Shown here piece by piece: positions 1,388 through 12,452 of a DNA stretch of 16,661 bases; the stretch's first letter is position 1, and each line of letters opens with the position of its first letter. The translations under genes and the position numbers were made by a program. The notes under the pieces are model-generated. The model saw nothing but the letters and a program-made list of their open reading frames with translations. It ran no database searches and was not told the DNA's origin. Source of the stretch: Candidatus Aminicenantota bacterium (GTDB taxonomy: Bacteria; Acidobacteriota; Aminicenantia; Aminicenantales; Aminicenantaceae); the NCBI GenBank assembly GCA_016926925.1, contig JAFGNQ010000104.1:1-16661 (forward strand). The letters run 5' to 3'.

Positions 1388-2080
1388 ATGCGTAAAGGTG
1401 TCCAAAAGCTCTATAAAGAGGTTGCTTCGACATACGAAATGATAAATCATGTCATAACCTTTGGACTCGATATAATTTGGAGAAAAAGAGCGGTACGCGA
1501 AGTTGCGGGAAAAGGTGGAGAAACGTGGCTCGATGTGTGTTGTGGGACAGGAGAGATGACCCGAAATCTCGCCAGAAAGGCGAATAGCGACACGCGCATC
1601 TGCTCGGTCGACTTCAGCCAGGAAATGCTTTCGCTTGCTATGAAGAAAAAATTCGAGAAGAAAATATTATTCACTTTGGCCGATGTCGGTAATCTTCCCT
1701 TCCCGGATGAAACCTTCGACCTTCTCACTATTTCCTTTTCAACTCGTAACTTGAATTTAAGCCGGGAAGAAATGCAGCACCATCTGGCGGAGTTTTTTCG
1801 AGTTCTCAAGCCAGAAGGACGTTTTCTGAATCTTGAGACAAGTCAACCTTCATCGCTGATTTTGCGCAAAGCATTTCATCTTTACATCAGAGCCGTCGTC
1901 CCTATTGTAGGCGCACTCATTTCCGGTTCGAAGGCCGGATACAAATATCTCGCCTACACCGTACCGAGGTTTTATTCTCCGAAAGACTTCAAGGAAATGC
2001 TTCATCGGACCGGATTTCGCAATGTTCACTTCCGCGTCCTTTTTTTCGGCATCTCAGCTATACATTTGGCTGAAAAATAG
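1388..2080 (+). CDS. menG: demethylmenaquinone/ubiquinone C-methyltransferase (MenG/UbiE)
   Basis: A 230-residue class I SAM methyltransferase of the UbiE/COQ5 family, which C-methylates the quinone ring in the last step of menaquinone (or ubiquinone) synthesis. The N-terminal segment VASTYEMINHVITFG (12-26) matches the family's F..(I/V)A..YD..N...S.G element. WLDVCCGTGEM (47-57) is the SAM-binding motif I, followed by the acidic residue in CSVDFS (72-77). LPFPDETFDLLTISFSTRN (103-121) is the UbiE signature, and the AGYKYLAYTVPRFYSPKDF region is the family's second signature. The C-terminus GISAIHLAEK matches the usual ...(A/I)xHxxxK ending, so the protein is complete although its last 23 bases overlap the opposing STAS gene. 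Methylation of demethylmenaquinone is favoured over ubiquinone because the rest of the window looks anaerobic; that part is inference. Confidence 0.92.
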   Translation: MRKGVQKLYKEVASTYEMINHVITFGLDIIWRKRAVREVAGKGGETWLDVCCGTGEMTRNLARKANSDTRICSVDFSQEMLSLAMKKKFEKKILFTLADVGNLPFPDETFDLLTISFSTRNLNLSREEMQHHLAEFFRVLKPEGRFLNLETSQPSSLILRKAFHLYIRAVVPIVGALISGSKAGYKYLAYTVPRFYSPKDFKEMLHRTGFRNVHFRVLFFGISAIHLAEK

Positions 2081-4927: not shown

Positions 4928-6160
4928 TCAAGTGACCCCTCCTATCTCTTCCGGATATTTTTTATACGTGTGAGATTCGTATATAGCATCAATTTCATTG
5001 AAAAGAATATTCAGCTCCTCATCTCGCGTGTAGAAATGAGGACCGATTCGGATAACATCCGGCTCATGATTATTCCCTTTCCGAAAATCGACCTTGATTT
5101 TTTTTTCTTCGAGAGCTTGTTTCACTTGAAAGGCGTGAGGCATACTTACCGACACCGCGCCTCCGCGCAAGGAGCTCTGTTCAGGTGTACAAAGACGAAA
5201 ATTCCTTTCTTTTGATTTGCTGGCGATTGTATTCGTTTGACTGACGGATTTCTTTCGGATTTCCTGAACACCGACATCTGCAATAAAATCCAACCCGGCA
5301 TCGGCAGTGTAGAGACAGGGAATGGGTGGGGTTCCCGACAAGAATTTGAAGTGTCCATCAGAAAATTCCATATTTTCAGAGAAAGCAAAAGGATTCTTAT
5401 GTGCAAACCAACCTGTAAGTTGAGGCTCGAGACTGGATGCAAGATCGGGACGAACATAGAGAAAACCTGTGCCCGGACCACCGCAAAGCCATTTCAAACA
5501 TCCACCTATATAGAAGTCAACACCGAGTTTTTTTAGATCGACAGGATAGCAGCCGGAAGCATGATACCCGTCAATCAAGGACAGAGCACCCATGCGCCGG
5601 GCATGAGCGGCAATGGTCTCTATATTCTGAACATGTGCCGATTTGAAGTAAATGTGAGAACTGGCAACGAAAAGTGTTTTTTCATCCACGCGGCTTATAA
5701 TATCCCCGGCTTCTATAAACGGCTTGTTCCCGCACCGGACGATTTCCACCTGCCATCCCATAAATTCAGAAATCTTGATTATGGAATACATGGAGGATGG
5801 AAAATCCTGATCCGTCATCACGATCTTATCCCGGTTTTTCTCCCCCGACAAAAACTTTGTAGAGAGTGCGATCCAATGAGCTTGGGTGGCATTCGGTATC
5901 ATCGTTATCGAGCCTTGATCGGCATTGAGCAATGAAGAGATTTTGTTCCCTACTCTTTCTGAAAGGTCCCACCATTCATTTTTCCAGGCACTGACTCCTT
6001 CCTCAGCCCAAAGATCATAGAACTGCATGAGTTTCATCAAAGTCGATTTGGGGACAGCCCCAAGAGAGTTGCTGATAAGATAGACGCTGTTTTTTAAAAC
6101 CGGGAATTCCTGCCGCAAGGCAGTCAAATCCTTATCCAAATCCCATCTCTTTTTCATCAT
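4928..6160 (-). CDS. kynureninase-like class V PLP-dependent enzyme
   Basis: A 410-residue fold-type I PLP enzyme (Aminotran_5). YLISNSLGAVP (27-37) corresponds to the kynureninase YLxGNSLG element, and DGYHASGCYPVDL (197-209) with D197 and H200 to the PLP-ring binding segment. GGCLKWLCGGPGTGFLYV (219-236) carries K223 as the Schiff-base lysine in the kynureninase-type KxxxGGPG setting. The C-terminal block RGGAVSVSMPHAF...VDFRKG...DVIRIGPHFYT matches the kynureninase RGG...DFR...IR.xP pattern. The ATG at 6160 overlaps the upstream stop as ATGA, with GGGA a few bases before it, so the two genes are translationally coupled. No other kynurenine-pathway gene is present, so a kynureninase-like C-C or C-X lyase or a transaminase on another substrate is equally possible. 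There is no signal peptide, so it is cytoplasmic. Confidence 0.82.
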   Translation of the reverse strand: MMKKRWDLDKDLTALRQEFPVLKNSVYLISNSLGAVPKSTLMKLMQFYDLWAEEGVSAWKNEWWDLSERVGNKISSLLNADQGSITMIPNATQAHWIALSTKFLSGEKNRDKIVMTDQDFPSSMYSIIKISEFMGWQVEIVRCGNKPFIEAGDIISRVDEKTLFVASSHIYFKSAHVQNIETIAAHARRMGALSLIDGYHASGCYPVDLKKLGVDFYIGGCLKWLCGGPGTGFLYVRPDLASSLEPQLTGWFAHKNPFAFSENMEFSDGHFKFLSGTPPIPCLYTADAGLDFIADVGVQEIRKKSVSQTNTIASKSKERNFRLCTPEQSSLRGGAVSVSMPHAFQVKQALEEKKIKVDFRKGNNHEPDVIRIGPHFYTRDEELNILFNEIDAIYESHTYKKYPEEIGGVT

Positions 6161-7464
6161 GTAGAAATCCCGTTCCTTATGTAATGAGAGAGGGTCTCAA
6201 TGAAAAAATCCAGCTCCCCCAATGTCGTGTATATGCTTGGAGTGACCCGAATTGCGGAAGTATCCTCAGGGACAGTAACTGCAATGGTAAATATTTTATG
6301 TTTATCGAAGAGAATTTTAGTCAGCTTTAGAAGATCCATATTCTCCACGGAGAAGGCTCCCAGTCCGCATGACTGCTCCGGTTCAAAAGAAGTCAATATT
6401 TTCACTCCGGGGAGCTTTTCTACTTTTTTTGCCCAATAGTCTCTCAAATAACGCAGCCGGGCCTCCTTGTTCTTGGCGCCGATGCCATGATGAAAAGCCA
6501 ATGCCTCTCCCACTGCCAATTGCAGCGCTTCGGGCTGGGTGCCGACATGTTCGAACTTGCGGATGTCATCTCCCAAAGGCTCGGGGGCGGGAAACAAAGG
6601 CCATATATCTTTGATTTTCTCTTTCTTCACATAGAGAAACCCTGTACCTATGGGCGCCATCATCCATTTGTGTAGATTGGCTCCGTATATATCGCAATCG
6701 ATATCCGTTTGTTTGAAATCAAAATGTCCGAAGGCATGAGCCCCATCGACTACGATTTCTATACCCCTCTCTCGGGCGATTTCAGAAATTTCTTTGAGAG
6801 GGAATATTTGACCGGTTAAGTTTGTGATATGGCACAAGAGTATGAGCTTAGTCTTTGCTGTCATGTTCCGCTTGAAAAGATCTGTCAGAACATGAAGGTT
6901 TTCGGGAGGATATGGGAAATTGAAAGTTTTGACGACAATACCTTCCCTTTTTTCCCTTTGGTAGAGGGCGTTTTTCATCGACGGGTAGTCGTGAGAAGTC
7001 GTTAGAACTTCATCCCCTGCTTTGAGATTCAAACCAAGGAGCGGAATCTGAAGGGCTTCTGTCACATTACGGACGAGCGCTATCTCTTCCGGTGAACAGC
7101 CGAAAGTATCGGCGATTTGTTGCCGGATGAGTTCTTTTCGGGGCCTGAGCACAGCCCACGAATTGTAGACAGGAGCTCCGTTGGACCAATCCAGATAACG
7201 CTTGAGTGCATCCATAACAACACGAGGTGCGGGATGAACACCTCCGTTATTCAGATTGATGATGCTCCTGTCAATATTGAAAGCTTGTTGTACCTGAAAC
7301 CAAAACCTCTCGTCTCGGGCAATTTCTTGCGATGATAGTCCGGAAATCCGGCCCGGACTTTTCACAAAATCAGTCTCAGCCGCTCGCGGCAACACGTTAA
7401 ATAGCCCCAAACTGCCAAGGCTCAGGCTGAATTCCTTGAAAAATTCTCTTCGACCAATGTTCAT
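6157..7464 (-). CDS. Tat-targeted class V PLP enzyme, isopenicillin-N-epimerase (CefD)-like
   Basis: A 435-residue Aminotran_5 protein. The N-terminus MNIGRREFFKEFSLSLGSLGLF is a twin-arginine signal (R5-R6, xFFK), followed by a hydrophobic core and a PRAAE region. ATG 7464 is chosen over the longer frame (7512) because AAGGAG lies at 7471-7476, six bases upstream, and because the Tat motif then sits at the very N-terminus. The catalytic domain shows VVDGAHAFGHFDF (D240, H243) and GANLHKWMMAPIGTGFLYV with K266 as PLP lysine, the CefD/EgtE-like arrangement. The family includes isopenicillin N epimerase, cysteine sulfoxide lyases and cysteine desulfurase relatives, so the reaction is open. A folded, cofactor-loaded enzyme exported by Tat would act outside the cytoplasmic membrane. 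It is coupled to the kynureninase-like gene and lies 165 bp after the RdhA-like gene. Confidence 0.85.
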   Translation of the reverse strand: MNIGRREFFKEFSLSLGSLGLFNVLPRAAETDFVKSPGRISGLSSQEIARDERFWFQVQQAFNIDRSIINLNNGGVHPAPRVVMDALKRYLDWSNGAPVYNSWAVLRPRKELIRQQIADTFGCSPEEIALVRNVTEALQIPLLGLNLKAGDEVLTTSHDYPSMKNALYQREKREGIVVKTFNFPYPPENLHVLTDLFKRNMTAKTKLILLCHITNLTGQIFPLKEISEIARERGIEIVVDGAHAFGHFDFKQTDIDCDIYGANLHKWMMAPIGTGFLYVKKEKIKDIWPLFPAPEPLGDDIRKFEHVGTQPEALQLAVGEALAFHHGIGAKNKEARLRYLRDYWAKKVEKLPGVKILTSFEPEQSCGLGAFSVENMDLLKLTKILFDKHKIFTIAVTVPEDTSAIRVTPSIYTTLGELDFFIETLSHYIRNGIST

Positions 7465-7629
7465 CTCTCTCTCCTTTTTACGGCTGGATATTCTTTTCCT
7501 CTGGTAAATCAAGCTCTATTCTTCAAATACTGCCATACTGCAAAAGTCTGCCTTCCAGGCGGAAAAATTGAGTGATTGCAACGTCGTTAAGCTGCCGGCG
7601 AAAACCTCCGCATATTGGGAAAGATCATT

Positions 7630-8973
7630 CTAAAAAATGGGTTCCCTCGGTAACGGATTCTTGCCGTAAAAGTAGTCATCCGCTCTTAGGGCTACTTTCT
7701 GTGCCGTCAATGTACGAGAAATCGTGTTTCTTATGAAAGTGTGGAAAGAATTGTTGGGTTTGCTGTAGGGACAGACATAAAGGCACATCGCACAGTCTGT
7801 TCCGGCTTTCCTCCAGAATCTGTAGCATCCCTCTCGGTTTATCACCCACTTCAAAACGCCATTCTCTTCGACTTTGTTTCCATGTGGTATGGCTTGTGCA
7901 GGGCAATTTATAGCGCATTTTTTGCAGATATTACAGAAATCTTGAATGCCGTTTTTTTTGGGTGAATCCGGAGTTAGAGGCAAGTCTGTAGTGATGAGAC
8001 CCAACCGTACCCTGGGACCGTACTTCTCTGTAATCAAAATGCCGATGCGCCCGATTTCACCTATCCCGGCTTTCCAGCCCAGCGGAGGCAAGATTGCCTG
8101 GTAATTGCTTCCGGAAATATGGGCCCTTGCCGGATAGCCCATTCGGCGGATGAGGTCAGAAACGATGAGTGCAATCTTGCTTACCTCTACGTATTTTCTC
8201 TCGGTCTCGACGATGACTGGGGCTTTGGGGGATGTGGCGATCATAGGGATATCCATGGGAACTGCAAAAACTATGGCGTACTTGTGTGCGAGAGCAATCT
8301 CTGAGCCGTAGGGCTCAGGCCCTCGTCCGACATGAGAGTAGACATATGCTTGGTCCAATTCACAAACACCGCTGGTATCGGCTCCGAAGAATTTAAGTAT
8401 GTTTTTGATATGACGTGTGTTATCGAACGGTGACAACTCGATTTTATCCGGACTCACTTCGCCCGTCACATAACGCACGTGGAGTCTGGTGAAATCCGTT
8501 TCTGCCGCCGTCAATGTAAATAGAATAGGATTTTTTTTTATGTGTTCGGGAGAGAGAATCTCCGGGAATTTGCGTATTTCCTCATCGGTGTTCCTCAGTC
8601 CGGATTTCCTTTCATAGTAATCTTTGTACGCTTTTGACCTTTCTTTAAGGTCAAAGCGGGAAAAAATCGTATCCCTTTCGTCAATTCTCTTCTGTTCACC
8701 AATAACTTTCATTTCTTCGTGAGGAGCTTGTGCAAAATAAATAAAAACAAAGGCACCTATTCCCAACAGGAAAATGCCCAAAAACAGAAGATTCTTTAAA
8801 ACTCCGGGGATGGTAAACAACAGAATATTGCCTAGGAAGAACATCAGGAAAAGCTGCAAAGCACGCCGAAACGCTCTGTGTTCTTTTAAAAGAAAGTTGT
8901 CTACCGTAAAAATGAAGAAAAATCCCAGGACAAAAAGCAGAGTGACCTCCCCCACAAACACCCAAAAACTCAT
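7630..8973 (-). CDS. membrane-anchored reductive dehalogenase-like corrinoid/Fe-S protein (TM-RdhA)
   Basis: A 447-residue protein. Residues 4-24, about 38-57 and 60-80 are hydrophobic helices, and a soluble domain follows. That domain has RdhA landmarks: DTIFSRFDL near 101-109, then a corrinoid-domain block GIGEIGRIGILIT...YGPRVRLGLITTDLPL (303-333), where GEIGR is the RdhA-type element. Two [4Fe-4S] motifs follow: C347-x2-C350-x2-C353-x3-C357-P, and C383 with C394-x2-C397-x3-C401-P. QueG, which shares this architecture, lacks the membrane helices and has a different block here. There is no Tat signal, and no rdhB-like small anchor gene is visible beside it. The basic loop between helices 1 and 2 (KEHRAFRR) predicts, by the positive-inside rule, a cytoplasmic catalytic domain. 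Substrate and true dehalogenase activity are unknown. A TTGACA promoter places its mRNA start at about the ATG. Confidence 0.85.
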   Translation of the reverse strand: MSFWVFVGEVTLLFVLGFFFIFTVDNFLLKEHRAFRRALQLFLMFFLGNILLFTIPGVLKNLLFLGIFLLGIGAFVFIYFAQAPHEEMKVIGEQKRIDERDTIFSRFDLKERSKAYKDYYERKSGLRNTDEEIRKFPEILSPEHIKKNPILFTLTAAETDFTRLHVRYVTGEVSPDKIELSPFDNTRHIKNILKFFGADTSGVCELDQAYVYSHVGRGPEPYGSEIALAHKYAIVFAVPMDIPMIATSPKAPVIVETERKYVEVSKIALIVSDLIRRMGYPARAHISGSNYQAILPPLGWKAGIGEIGRIGILITEKYGPRVRLGLITTDLPLTPDSPKKNGIQDFCNICKKCAINCPAQAIPHGNKVEENGVLKWVINREGCYRFWRKAGTDCAMCLYVCPYSKPNNSFHTFIRNTISRTLTAQKVALRADDYFYGKNPLPREPIF

Positions 8974-8979
8974 GTTACA

Positions 8980-9008
8980 AAATTAAAGAACTCCGGCGAT
9001 TATGTCAA
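8980..9008 (-). promoter_or_regulatory. sigma70-type promoter giving a leaderless mRNA for the RdhA-like gene
   Basis: On the minus strand a perfect TTGACA (9003-9008) and TAATTT (8980-8985) are 17 bp apart. Only six bases separate the -10 box from ATG 8973, so transcription should begin at or next to the start codon. No Shine-Dalgarno fits in that space; the nearest GGAG lies inside the promoter spacer. Confidence 0.6.
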
Positions 9009-9186: not shown

Positions 9187-10317
9187 ATGGAATTCATCCA
9201 CTACTATAAGTCACGAAAGGGAGAGATGATCAACCTCCTTAAAAAGTTAGTGGACTTGGAATCACCCTCTTCTGATAAAAAGGCTGTAGACCGATGTGCT
9301 TCCTTTGCTGCTGCCCAATTCCGAAAATCAGGAGCAAAGATCACGGATTTCCCTCAAAAAGACATAGGAAATTTGCATCTGGTCGAGTACCCTCATCCTG
9401 GGCCGAAGGAAATGAAAGAACGCGTCACCCTCCTGACGCACGTGGATACGGTATGGCCGAAAGGAAAAATTAAGGAAATGCCCTTCTATGTATCCGGAGA
9501 TAAAATCTATGGTCCTGGAGTACTCGATATGAAAGCGGGTCTGGTGATGGCTGTATTTTCACTCAGAACGCTCCGCGATTTGAACATTGAACCACGAAAA
9601 AAAATCACCGTATTCATGAATTCTGCAGAAGAAATCGGCAGCGATCCAGCCAACGAAATGATCCGGAACCTGGCCAAAAGATCCTCCTGCATATTGTGTT
9701 TAGAACCCGCACTTCCAGGGGGAGCTCTCAAAGTTCAGAGAAAGGGGCGGATGGATATTTCCTTGGAAACTAAAGGAAAATCGGCACATGCAGGGAATCC
9801 CCAAAATGGCGTCAATGCAGTGGAAGAGCTCCTGCAACAGCTTCGCCATTTGCAGAAATTAAAGACAAAATCGATTACCATGAATATCGGGGTAATAAGG
9901 GGGGGGATTCGTGTCAATATCGTCCCGGATGAGGCAGGGGCCCATTTGGATTTTCGCTTTTGGAAAAGTATTCAAAAAGACAAAATCATCCAATTCTTTA
10001 ACGAACTCCAACCCACGATAAAGGGAGCGAAAATCAAATATGCCGTCAAGAGCTATCTTCCTCCTATGGAAAAAACCCCCGCCTCCGAAAAGCTGCTCAA
10101 TCAGGTCAGAAATATCGCTGCATCCATGGGGCTCATTCTTCAATGGGGGAAAACAGGTGGAGGTTCGGATGCCTCGATTGCGGCCACCATGGGAACGGCA
10201 ACACTTGACGGGCTCGGGCCGGATGGGGATGGAATTCATGCAGCAGACGAGCATCTCCTCATTTCCTCTCTCGTGGAAAGGACCGCTCTGCTCACTGAAA
10301 TATTGCGCCAGCTCTGA
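9187..10317 (+). CDS. M20-family metallopeptidase, glutamate carboxypeptidase (CPG2)-like
   Basis: A 376-residue dinuclear zinc exopeptidase or amidohydrolase without a signal peptide, expected in the cytoplasm. Zinc ligands follow the CPG2 order: H85 in THVDTVW (with D87), D114 in GPGVLDMKAG, E149 in NSAEEIGS (E148 as catalytic base), E173 in CLEPALPGG, and H351 in GDGIHAADEH. The dimerisation (lid) domain contains the usual GKSAHAGNPQNGVNA with H201. Family members release C-terminal glutamate or hydrolyse N-acyl amino acids; the substrate is not determinable. The start is supported by AAGGA at 9174-9178. The stop codon abuts the -35 box of the next unit, so the gene may be monocistronic or may read into the serine genes. 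Confidence 0.88.
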   Translation: MEFIHYYKSRKGEMINLLKKLVDLESPSSDKKAVDRCASFAAAQFRKSGAKITDFPQKDIGNLHLVEYPHPGPKEMKERVTLLTHVDTVWPKGKIKEMPFYVSGDKIYGPGVLDMKAGLVMAVFSLRTLRDLNIEPRKKITVFMNSAEEIGSDPANEMIRNLAKRSSCILCLEPALPGGALKVQRKGRMDISLETKGKSAHAGNPQNGVNAVEELLQQLRHLQKLKTKSITMNIGVIRGGIRVNIVPDEAGAHLDFRFWKSIQKDKIIQFFNELQPTIKGAKIKYAVKSYLPPMEKTPASEKLLNQVRNIAASMGLILQWGKTGGGSDASIAATMGTATLDGLGPDGDGIHAADEHLLISSLVERTALLTEILRQL

Positions 10318-10346
10318 TTGACGGCCTCTCAAATTTCTGCTAACTT
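10318..10346 (+). promoter_or_regulatory. candidate extended -10 promoter for the serine/NifS unit
   Basis: TTGACG (10318-10323) and TAACTT (10341-10346) are 17 bp apart, with TG at 10338-10339 forming an extended -10 (TGnTAACTT). The -35 begins on the base after the M20 stop codon. The same TTG is an apparent in-frame start of the next gene, but its position in a promoter argues against translation from it. Confidence 0.45.
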
Positions 10347-10404
10347 ATTTGTCTTGTGTTCTACCGCTTCATCCATCCGGATTCTGAAAGGCAGGACGAA
10401 TATT

Positions 10405-11550
10405 TTGATCAAGAAACCTTATCTTCTCACCCCGGGGCCAACGCCCCTTCCTGACAGAGTTCTGGCATGTGCATTGCAACCGATCATGCATCACCGAACC
10501 CGCGAATTCTCAGAAATTTATATGGAAACCTGCGAAGGCATAAAGTATGTGTTCCAGACGCAGCAGGATGTTTTTGTCCTTACCTCTTCCGGGTCAGGAG
10601 CTATGGAGGCCGCTGTTGTCAACACCCTCTCCCCAGGAGATGAGGTTATATCCATCAATGGAGGAAAGTTTGGTGACCGCTGGGGCAAAATATGCCGCGC
10701 ATACGGTGTGGAAAGCCATGAGATAATGCTCGAGTGGGGGGACGCTCTCTCTCCGGAAGCACTGGCTGAGGAGCTGCAGGCTCATCCCGCTTCAAAAGCT
10801 GTGCTGGCAACCCTGGCCGAAACATCGACGGGCACTGTCTTTGATATTCAAGGCTTTGGGAAAGTTGTTTCCGATACGGAAGCTATTCTTGTAGTGGATG
10901 CCATTTCCGGAATAGGGGCGACTCCTTGTCCGATGGACGATTGGAAGGTGGATGTTCTTATTTCGGCGTCTCAAAAATCTTTCATGGCTCCCCCGGGCTT
11001 AGCTTACATATCATTCGGTGGAAAAGCCTGGAATCTTGCCGGAAAAGCGACCCTTCCAAAATTTTATTTCGATGTCATGGCAGCAAAAAAGAGCCTGGGG
11101 AAAAGGACCACCCCCTGGTCCCCAGCCATTTCTCTGATCATTCAACAGAGAGAAGCACTGAGATTCATCCGCGATATCGGACTCGAAAATCTTCTCGGGC
11201 ACCACGACATCCTTGGTAGAGCCGTGAGGTCCGGAGTCCGAGCCATCGGCCTTGAATTGCTGTCCAAACGTTCCGGAAACATATTGACTGCAGTTAAAAT
11301 CCCTAAAGGAGTCGACGGAAACGCGCTTCTAAAAAAAATGCAGGACAAATATAAAGTTCATATAGCAGGCGCTCAGGAGCCTCATAAAGGCGAATTCATA
11401 CGTATAGCCCATCTCGGATATATGGGAGCGTTCGATATCATAACCGCTTTGAGCGCCTTGGAAATGGCGCTTTCCGAATCGGGCTATGGCTTTCAGATAG
11501 GAGAGGCTGTCAAAGCCGCTGAAGAAATTATAAAGGAGAATTGGCAATGA
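10405..11550 (+). CDS. SGPL-type class V aminotransferase, probable phosphoserine/serine aminotransferase
   Basis: A 381-residue fold-type I PLP enzyme of the serine-pyruvate/alanine-glyoxylate group. LLTPGPTPLP (7-16) and MHHRTREF (28-35) are group signatures. SSGSGAMEAA (61-70) binds the cofactor phosphate, D165 in VVDAISGIG the pyridine ring, and K191 in SASQKSFMAPPG forms the Schiff base. TTG 10405 is chosen because AGGA (10393-10396) precedes it by eight bases and the protein then begins directly before the conserved TPGPT block, at the usual 380-residue length. A longer frame from TTG 10318 adds 29 residues that resemble nothing in the family. The next gene, serA, starts inside the stop (ATGA). 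That pairing is known from Thermotoga and archaea, where SGPL enzymes replace SerC, so conversion of 3-phosphohydroxypyruvate to phosphoserine is the likely role; glyoxylate transamination is the alternative. Confidence 0.85.
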   Translation: MIKKPYLLTPGPTPLPDRVLACALQPIMHHRTREFSEIYMETCEGIKYVFQTQQDVFVLTSSGSGAMEAAVVNTLSPGDEVISINGGKFGDRWGKICRAYGVESHEIMLEWGDALSPEALAEELQAHPASKAVLATLAETSTGTVFDIQGFGKVVSDTEAILVVDAISGIGATPCPMDDWKVDVLISASQKSFMAPPGLAYISFGGKAWNLAGKATLPKFYFDVMAAKKSLGKRTTPWSPAISLIIQQREALRFIRDIGLENLLGHHDILGRAVRSGVRAIGLELLSKRSGNILTAVKIPKGVDGNALLKKMQDKYKVHIAGAQEPHKGEFIRIAHLGYMGAFDIITALSALEMALSESGYGFQIGEAVKAAEEIIKENWQ

Positions 11551-12452
11551 AAAAAATACTTGTATGTGATCCCTTGGATGCCGACGCTTTCGAGGAGCTG
11601 AAATCCATCTCTGAATTTGAAGTGACACTCAAACCCGGTATGGATGAAGAAGCCCTAGTGCATACCATGCCCGGCTTTCATGCTGCTGTCGTCCGCAGCG
11701 CTACGAAATTGCGGCAAAGTGCCATCGAAGCGGCGACGGATCTCGAACTCATCGTACGTGCCGGAATCGGACTCGACAACATAGACGTCGCTGCAGCCGA
11801 GGCTAAAGGAATCCGCGTGGCAAACACACCCGCTGCCACTACCATCTCTGTTGCTGAACACACGTTCGGCTTGATGTTGGCAGCTGTACGCCAGCATGGA
11901 AGCGCAAACCTATCCATGAAGGAACACAAGTGGGAAAAGAAAAAATTTAAAGGTACCGAGCTCTATGAAAAAACACTGGGCATTATTGGAAGCGGACGGA
12001 TCGGTTGTGCTGTGGCGGAGCGGGCAATCGCCTTTGGAATGAAAGTGCTCGCTTTTGATATTATTCCCATAAAAACGGCTTTAGAAATCGAGCAGGTAAC
12101 CCTGGATCGACTCTTGGGACAGGCGGATATCATCTCCCTTCATTTGCCGTTATCGGAAAGCACCAAACACATGATCGGCGACGAAGCTTTTTCCAAGATG
12201 AAAGATGGCGTGATCATTATCAACGCCTCTCGCGGCGGGATCGTCGATGAAGAATCTCTTCTCAAAGCTCTGGAATCTGGCAAAGCAGGTGCTGCAGCCT
12301 TGGATGTGTACGAAAAGGAACCGCCCGAAGATTTTCGGCTCATCGATCATCCCAACGTCATTTGTACGCCGCACATCGGGGCCGCTGCCAAAGAGGGACA
12401 AAAGAGAGCCGGCTTTGAAGTGGTGAAAATACTCAAAGAACAATTTTTATAA
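11547..12452 (+). CDS. serA: D-3-phosphoglycerate dehydrogenase, short ACT-less form
   Basis: A 301-residue NAD-dependent 2-hydroxyacid dehydrogenase that oxidises 3-phosphoglycerate in serine synthesis. LIVRAGIGLDNID (68-80) is the PGDH substrate-side signature. GIIGSGRIG (145-153) is the Rossmann glycine motif. The catalytic residues are R229 in NASRGG, E258 in DVYEKEPP and H276 in TPHIGAA. It lacks the C-terminal ASB/ACT domains of E. coli and Mycobacterium SerA, so serine feedback through ACT is not expected. ATG 11547 overlaps the aminotransferase TGA and is served by GGAG at 11535-11538; the in-frame TTG at 11541 is less likely. Other 2-hydroxyacid dehydrogenases share the fold, but the neighbour makes SerA the best reading. 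Confidence 0.88.
   Translation: MKKILVCDPLDADAFEELKSISEFEVTLKPGMDEEALVHTMPGFHAAVVRSATKLRQSAIEAATDLELIVRAGIGLDNIDVAAAEAKGIRVANTPAATTISVAEHTFGLMLAAVRQHGSANLSMKEHKWEKKKFKGTELYEKTLGIIGSGRIGCAVAERAIAFGMKVLAFDIIPIKTALEIEQVTLDRLLGQADIISLHLPLSESTKHMIGDEAFSKMKDGVIIINASRGGIVDEESLLKALESGKAGAAALDVYEKEPPEDFRLIDHPNVICTPHIGAAAKEGQKRAGFEVVKILKEQFL

Follow-up and report, generated by a model that had tools for sequence, protein, structure and literature searches.

What is to be expected of a protein of the reductive dehalogenase type (RdhA) that carries its own membrane anchor, has no twin-arginine translocation (Tat) signal and stands without the usual RdhB partner? The question is raised by a gene of a Candidatus Aminicenantota bacterium, an uncultured anaerobe, located at positions 7630..8973 on the reverse strand of contig JAFGNQ010000104.1, of which a stretch of 16,661 nucleotides was analysed, hereafter the window. 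The gene is a complete open reading frame (ORF) with an ATG start and encodes 447 residues. Judged from its sequence, the product is probably a B12-type (corrinoid) reductase related to the dehalogenases, membrane-inserted and, as it appears, turned towards the cytoplasm. Regarding its role, the best reading, to which a little less than an even chance is given, is that of a quinol-fed, membrane-anchored corrinoid reductase working on the cytoplasmic side as an electron sink. Fold and motifs, residue conservation, the pattern of positive charges along the anchor and a near-core distribution in one bacterial family were computed directly, and are presented below together with the explanations that compete for them.

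The assignment to RdhA draws on family models, homologues, an AlphaFold2 model and alignments with VIA-align. The NCBIfam RDH model (TIGR02486) is matched with 161.6 bits, narrowly above its cut-off of 160.35, and the QueG model (TIGR00276) with 46.2 bits, far under the curated cut-off of 200, which places the protein outside the QueG family; the Pfam match covers the ferredoxin part only. Since 1759 homologues were found at E <= 1e-3, the ORF is not a product of chance; among the best 120 of them, most are near-equal in length and the named ones come mostly from Candidatus Aminicenantes or Acidobacteriota, and of these 120 proteins 66 are represented in the alignment A2 and 14, including the window protein, in the tree. 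A viral origin was rejected, no match to PHROGs being found.

The active site is where kinship with the dehalogenases is most tangible (all positions within the gene are on the reverse strand). The catalytic domain begins at a DERD signature (residues 98-101; 8671..8682). Alignments combined with published numbering identify Y261 (8191..8193), the proposed proton donor, with SmPceA Y246, DhPceA Y337 and NpRdhA Y426, and R323 (8005..8007) with SmPceA R305, DhPceA R396 and NpRdhA K488, so that the catalytic Tyr-Arg pair of the respiratory RdhAs is kept. Both [4Fe-4S] motifs read from the sequence in the initial annotation are present, the first as C347, C350, C353 and C357 (7903..7935) and the second as C394, C397 and C401 (7771..7794), and are likewise common to the respiratory enzymes. 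Throughout a 96-row alignment the seven cysteines are conserved in all rows, Y261 occurs in every RdhA-like row as well as in the QueG protein L086, and position 323 is Arg, save for Lys in NpRdhA and the two L074 proteins and for Phe in QueG L086. At position 261, His is carried by L088 and L089, proteins of 332 aa that match the QueG model weakly. H285 is shared by nearly all anchored and anchor-less relatives and by NpRdhA, but not by PceA or most Tat-type RdhAs, and NpRdhA R552 aligns with the variable position 385. While QueG has the FeS-corrinoid architecture and the Tyr in common with the window protein, it misses the Arg; NpRdhA (4ras), a catabolic soluble dehalogenase, differs by its Lys at the R323 position, a second repeated domain match and the lack of an anchor. 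In fold, the AlphaFold2 model is matched by VIA-align to corrinoid-bound enzymes and, going by this match, the protein would bind a corrinoid itself.

Respiratory RdhAs possess a Tat signal and a separate adjoining RdhB gene, neither of which is found here. No twin-arginine motif is seen by eye at the N-terminus, which is itself a transmembrane (TM) helix, and a scan of the window for ORFs of 45-200 aa with a 19-residue mean hydropathy > 1.8 returned four small hydrophobic ORFs, three of them inside other genes and the nearest about 3.5 kb off, but no candidate rdhB adjoining the gene. The chain begins instead with three helices predicted at residues 3-28 (8890..8967), 32-54 (8812..8880) and 58-79 (8737..8802) in the AlphaFold2 model (mean pLDDT, the predicted local distance difference test, 91.9) and backed by hydropathy, the mean of which across 66 rows supports a three-helix N-terminus. 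On all three counts, namely an anchor of its own, no Tat signal and no rdhB alongside, the initial annotation was borne out. The loop between helices 1 and 2 also contains the position of the so-called EXE motif (residues 29-31; 8881..8889), which reads L-K-E here and E-x-E in most relatives.

Where the initial annotation, which lists TM-RdhA among the sequences for comparison, went astray was in presenting this architecture as a departure from the known kinds. Hybrid putative reductive dehalogenases with N-terminal TM helices were first noted by Jochum (2018; PMC6129605) and described by Atashgahi (2019; PMC6797604), and the window protein resembles them in its three N-terminal TM helices, both FeS motifs and the absence of Tat signal and rdhB; the table of the 2019 paper includes Aminicenantes and a 447-aa protein from Candidatus Fischerbacteria. 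The class was linked in 2023 to the structure of PceA2B2, the accessible text giving no residue-level analysis of it (Cimmino et al., PMC10624902). The window protein is thus an additional hybrid, from an Aminicenantes-like bacterium, of a class already in print. What is added here is the conservation of a quinone pocket in the anchored forms, its disappearance from most TM-less relatives, an orientation signal that is uniform within the lineage and the near-core distribution; neither a residue-level account of the pocket of the hybrids nor a description of a soluble TM-less branch was found in a literature search that left preprints and most subscription papers outside.

In a 92-row tree of the catalytic domain, hybrids and TM-less relatives form a single 74-row clade with a support of 99/99, and it is with this support that the separation from known RdhA clades, by which hybrids are recognised, is found. 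PceA, the Tat-type RdhAs and NpRdhA fall outside, the known RdhAs consisting of three PDB fragments and of RdhAs from further genomes, and the rows not including the hybrids named in PMC6797604. Inside the clade, P0002 is the sister of the window protein (99/83), and P0003 comes next (100/91). Model scores, VIA-align and tree thus agree on an RdhA-like protein as initially proposed, and the identity of a QueG or of a plain ferredoxin is ruled out. From the 65 loci, four fragments (L018, L027, L063, L064) and four near copies (L006, L009, L010, L011) were left out of the tree and of the residue counts; L053, L069, L088 and L089 were dropped before the tree, L008, L043, L077 and L084 entered with a shortened N-terminus, no usable frame was obtained for L068 and L092, and L080 and L081 were not used.

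The TM-less proteins, from Clostridia such as Romboutsia and Tepidibacter and from Alkaliphilus, Psychrilyobacter and a few others, are nested among the anchored ones, and the marked branches of the tree require a minimum of five changes in the anchor trait. Most of them start just before a (K/R)(I/V)DERD motif; L048, L050, L052, L055-L059, L065 and others are examples of about 350 aa, from Clostridia and other bacteria, which start at DERD. In one family bearing such forms, 25 of 60 genomes hold a relative, in open frames of 309-417 aa that were not checked individually. Cytoplasmic RdhAs, whether of this branch or of another, are mentioned by Jochum (2018; PMC6129605).

On which side of the membrane does the catalytic domain lie? 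An anchor of three helices would put the catalytic domain and the EXE loop on one side whichever the orientation. The basic helix 1-2 loop, from which a cytoplasmic domain had been deduced at first, does exist, with four K/R and a net charge of +2, and is conserved: across 66 close relatives the mean K/R count is 4.0 in this loop and 0.9 in the helix 2-3 loop, with almost none at the N-terminus. By the positive-inside rule, a rough guide, the counts point to a C-terminus in the cytoplasm in 58/58 TM-bearing rows, mostly from Aminicenantes, and in 57 of these 58 the first loop alone outweighs the K/R of the other side. In the TMHMM table of PMC6797604, as counted here, the cytoplasmic entries number 33 of 69 hybrids and include the 447-aa Fischerbacteria protein and the two from Aminicenantes, so that the published orientation is mixed, in contrast with the uniform signal of the different, mostly Aminicenantes set gathered here. 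Besides, the TM-less relatives nested in the clade show no obvious way of leaving the cytoplasm, with which a cytoplasmic reading of the anchored forms fits, unproven as it is. The prediction of a cytoplasm-facing domain stands on these two grounds.

The source of the electrons is the next question. In PceA2B2, the menaquinol:organohalide oxidoreductase of Desulfitobacterium hafniense (8q4h), the catalytic subunit is exported by Tat, PceB is a separate protein and the complex works on the positive (P) side of the membrane, its site taking part in a redox loop, whereas the window protein is a single chain without Tat signal, predicted on the negative (N) side, the EXE loop of hybrids lying between TM1 and TM2. 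As described for that complex, menaquinone sits between the PceA helices a17/a18 and PceB, near K489, H495, R499 and D515, and Y520 is among the residues proposed for proton transfer (PMC10624902). A C-terminal helix pair of the window protein (residues 405-436; 7666..7761) aligns with a17/a18 of DhPceA and brings K405, H411, R415 and D432 to the four menaquinone-pocket positions and Y436 to that of Y520 in the MAFFT alignment, Y520 pairing with G437 in the pairwise one. The AlphaFold2 model has helices 409-418 and 422-436 in this region, and VIA-align extends to residue 543 of 8q4h_A; the idea that hybrids end before a17/a18 and hence have no quinone site proved wrong once the alignment was read with the published residue numbers, both helices being there.

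Among the 58 anchored rows, position 405 is Lys in 45 (His in 11, Arg in 2), and H411 is kept in 57, R415 in 58, D432 in 57 and Y436 in 58; among the 16 TM-less rows, the corresponding counts are 3 for H411, 5 for R415, 4 for D432 and 6 for Y436. The complete H-R-D-Y set is hence found in 56/58 anchored vs. 3/16 TM-less rows. The three TM-less proteins in which it is intact (L082, L054 and L085) may have lost the anchor recently or have a separate one, unless limits of the assembly are the cause, and no hydrophobic ORF is seen just upstream of any of them.

Regarding mechanism, we infer the topology, the quinol donor and the role of the window protein together. The C-terminal helix pair (with K405, H411, R415, D432 and Y436) and the N-terminal helices would together form a pocket for the oxidation of a membrane quinol, the electrons of the quinol would pass through the two [4Fe-4S] clusters to the corrinoid, and the latter would reduce a small substrate to which Y261, tuned by R323, would give a proton. 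Because quinol and substrate protons would both be on the cytoplasmic side, the reaction itself would conserve no energy, and its role would be that of an electron sink or of a detoxification step rather than an energy-conserving one. The direct supply from menaquinol suggested in the initial annotation thus gains indirect support from the kept pocket residues, a support that stops short of the donor itself.

Several observations weigh against this quinol-fed scheme. The protonatable pocket residues are reported to be conserved also in RdhAs of dehalogenating bacteria free of quinones (Cimmino et al., PMC10624902), and are for that reason no proof of quinone binding; their part may be in proton transfer or in docking to the membrane. 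Three anchor-less rows retain H-R-D-Y and two anchored rows each miss one residue, while the association of anchor and pocket amounts to 4-5 independent contrasts, a number with which the sign test (p 0.25-1) is unable to reach significance, the contrasts being taken on a tree built without the pocket columns and with L049 scored as TM-less despite one hydrophobic window in its upstream frame. The first Glu of the EXE motif is missing from the window protein, which keeps the second alone (L29-K30-E31) where hybrids have both, E29 being present in 63/66 rows with the window protein counted. As for the orientation, 36/69 published hybrids are exoplasmic by TMHMM (PMC6797604), and the 58 rows do not include the anchored deltaproteobacterial or Bacteroidetes hybrids that fill much of that table. 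In the literature found, no activity is reported for any hybrid. Finally, searches for biosynthetic genes in 19 host genomes (the family contributed 11, the class G246 and the Romboutsia family five, with two others besides) gave no match over cut-off for MenD (weaker matches in 7 genomes; 7/14 controls over cut-off) or for MqnA/MqnD (weaker matches in 4; 4/14 controls over cut-off), and CobQ and CobS are over cut-off in 0/12 tested genomes of the class of G001, so that these hosts would depend on an imported corrinoid. CobQ and CobS are each over cut-off in 5/19 genomes, namely, for either gene, the Romboutsia-family five, Clostridia-type genomes that bear the TM-less form.

That hosts without menaquinone genes exclude a quinol donor is nonetheless weakened by two proteins. 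One UbiA-family protein of G001 is MenA-like, with 97.3 bits against a cut-off of 102.15, and falls into one cluster with proteins of G002, G005 and G006 but with none of G004; and the window itself encodes a UbiE/MenG-like methyltransferase (1388-2080, forward strand; 214 bits against a cut-off of 158), given which a quinone could possibly be made from a scavenged precursor. UbiA-family matches are over cut-off in 14/19 genomes but are in themselves no sign of a quinone, because another such protein of G001 is a decaprenyl-phosphate phosphoribosyltransferase.

The lack of matches over cut-off to early menaquinone genes speaks also for a soluble donor. Ferredoxin, flavodoxin or a DUF362-type ferredoxin would then feed a corrinoid reductase still facing the cytoplasm, the helices merely positioning it near its substrate or another complex. 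Nested TM-less relatives that keep the catalytic pair and the FeS motifs indicate that the chemistry is independent of the anchor, and a gene of the DUF362+Fer4 cluster is found in 13 related loci, in 12 of which it lies immediately upstream in divergent orientation; its product is a possible soluble electron donor. Against this, the window rdhA has no DUF362 gene beside it, and the pocket residues are near-invariant in anchored forms and mostly gone in TM-less ones; a soluble donor is on balance considered unlikely, if worth keeping in sight.

It is also rather doubtful that the enzyme is no dehalogenase in vivo but, like QueG, a class-III corrinoid enzyme with a housekeeping task, reducing a metabolite without halogen; a non-halogenated substrate had been suggested as a possibility in the initial annotation. 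A single match per genome in 30 of the 38 genomes of one family, a conserved neighbourhood and nearby genes for amino-acid and pyridoxal phosphate (PLP) enzymes speak for it; against it, the fold and the Tyr-Arg pair are of the dehalogenase kind, QueG being without the Arg, and natural organohalides could equally well be a standing substrate. The near-core syntenic pattern fits a standing physiological role and does not differentiate between a natural organohalide and another substrate. This proposal is compatible with the quinol-fed reductase, which leaves the substrate open.

An outward-facing respiratory dehalogenase, i.e. a simple RdhB-RdhA fusion adding to the proton motive force, is quite improbable, since the exoplasmic TMHMM calls for part of the published hybrids (PMC6797604), the match of the pocket residues to a P-side complex and the third rank of PceB in a profile search of the N-terminus against the PDB, where the EXE loops line up but the E value is 0.91, are opposed by a cofactor-loaded domain without Tat signal, by the 58/58 positive-inside counts and by separate Tat-type RdhAs in genomes of the same family. 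With such an E value the PceB match is not significant and homology of the anchor to PceB is not upheld; VIA-align of the TM helices alone, which barely tests the point, gave low-scoring rows only.

Returning to the quinol-fed reductase, a broader and more tentative view, held with rather less assurance, is that of an inverted PceA2B2: a single-chain, N-side, quinol-oxidising corrinoid reductase that serves as a near-core housekeeping electron sink in uncultured sediment bacteria, possibly with a natural organohalide or a metabolite free of halogen as its substrate, and that gave rise to soluble forms in which anchor and quinone pocket were dropped. The function of TM-hybrid RdhAs and the export of outward-facing ones are questions raised in print (PMC6797604), and the pocket match, the absence of the pocket from most relatives that have no anchor and the consistent positive-inside counts make the hypothesis directly testable. 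If it is true, a cytoplasm-facing quinol:corrinoid reductase would belong to the standing physiology of a widespread uncultured lineage, and metagenomic rdhA genes could not automatically be read as organohalide respiration.

As regards distribution, the family in question is that of G004, the Aminicenantes metagenome-assembled genome of locus L001, where the 30 genomes have one match each at E <= 1e-120, a few being partial at contig ends. Matches at E <= 1e-80, some of them TM-less, are found in 36/94 genomes of the order and 59/142 of the class; in a sample of the phylum, 69/199 genomes have a match at E <= 1e-3, QueG-like matches included. G001, G002, G004 and G006 carry the separate Tat-type RdhA genes (L066, L067, L070-L072).

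Around rdhA, the downstream neighbour (6157..7512, reverse strand; ATG start probably at 7464) encodes a class-V PLP enzyme with a Tat-like RREFFK N-terminus, whose best NCBIfam match is PvdN, under cut-off; it is followed in the conserved block by a kynureninase-like PLP enzyme, also under cut-off (4928..6160, reverse strand). Such PvdN-like and kynureninase-like genes adjoin rdhA in many Aminicenantes loci. On the other side, divergent genes encode an M20 peptidase, an aspartate-glyoxylate aminotransferase-like and a phosphoglycerate dehydrogenase-like protein (9187..12452, forward strand). Considering 29 loci (L001-L028 and L062), the divergent M20/aminotransferase genes (clusters c3/c2) are upstream in 21/22 loci with enough upstream sequence, and a class-V PLP gene of cluster c1, which also includes a NifS-type gene, is downstream in 17/20 loci with enough downstream sequence. 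The DUF362+Fer4 cluster, one member of which was typed, is exemplified by L022 (8668-9846, reverse strand). Neighbours differ in other phyla and in Clostridia. A substrate could not be read from the neighbours, M20 peptidase, aminotransferases, phosphoglycerate dehydrogenase, glycoside hydrolase, DUF families, OmpW-like and radical SAM proteins indicating no reaction.

Upstream of rdhA, no obvious Shine-Dalgarno sequence is seen by eye before the ATG, and the published rdhA RNA motif was set aside as concerning mostly Dehalococcoides. A promoter-like TTGACA-N17-TAATTTT element (8979..9008, reverse strand) ends 5 nt before the ATG, and like elements stop 5-6 nt before the start in 8/22 relatives examined, an arrangement that, on sequence grounds, suggests a leaderless mRNA with a TAnnTTT-type element.
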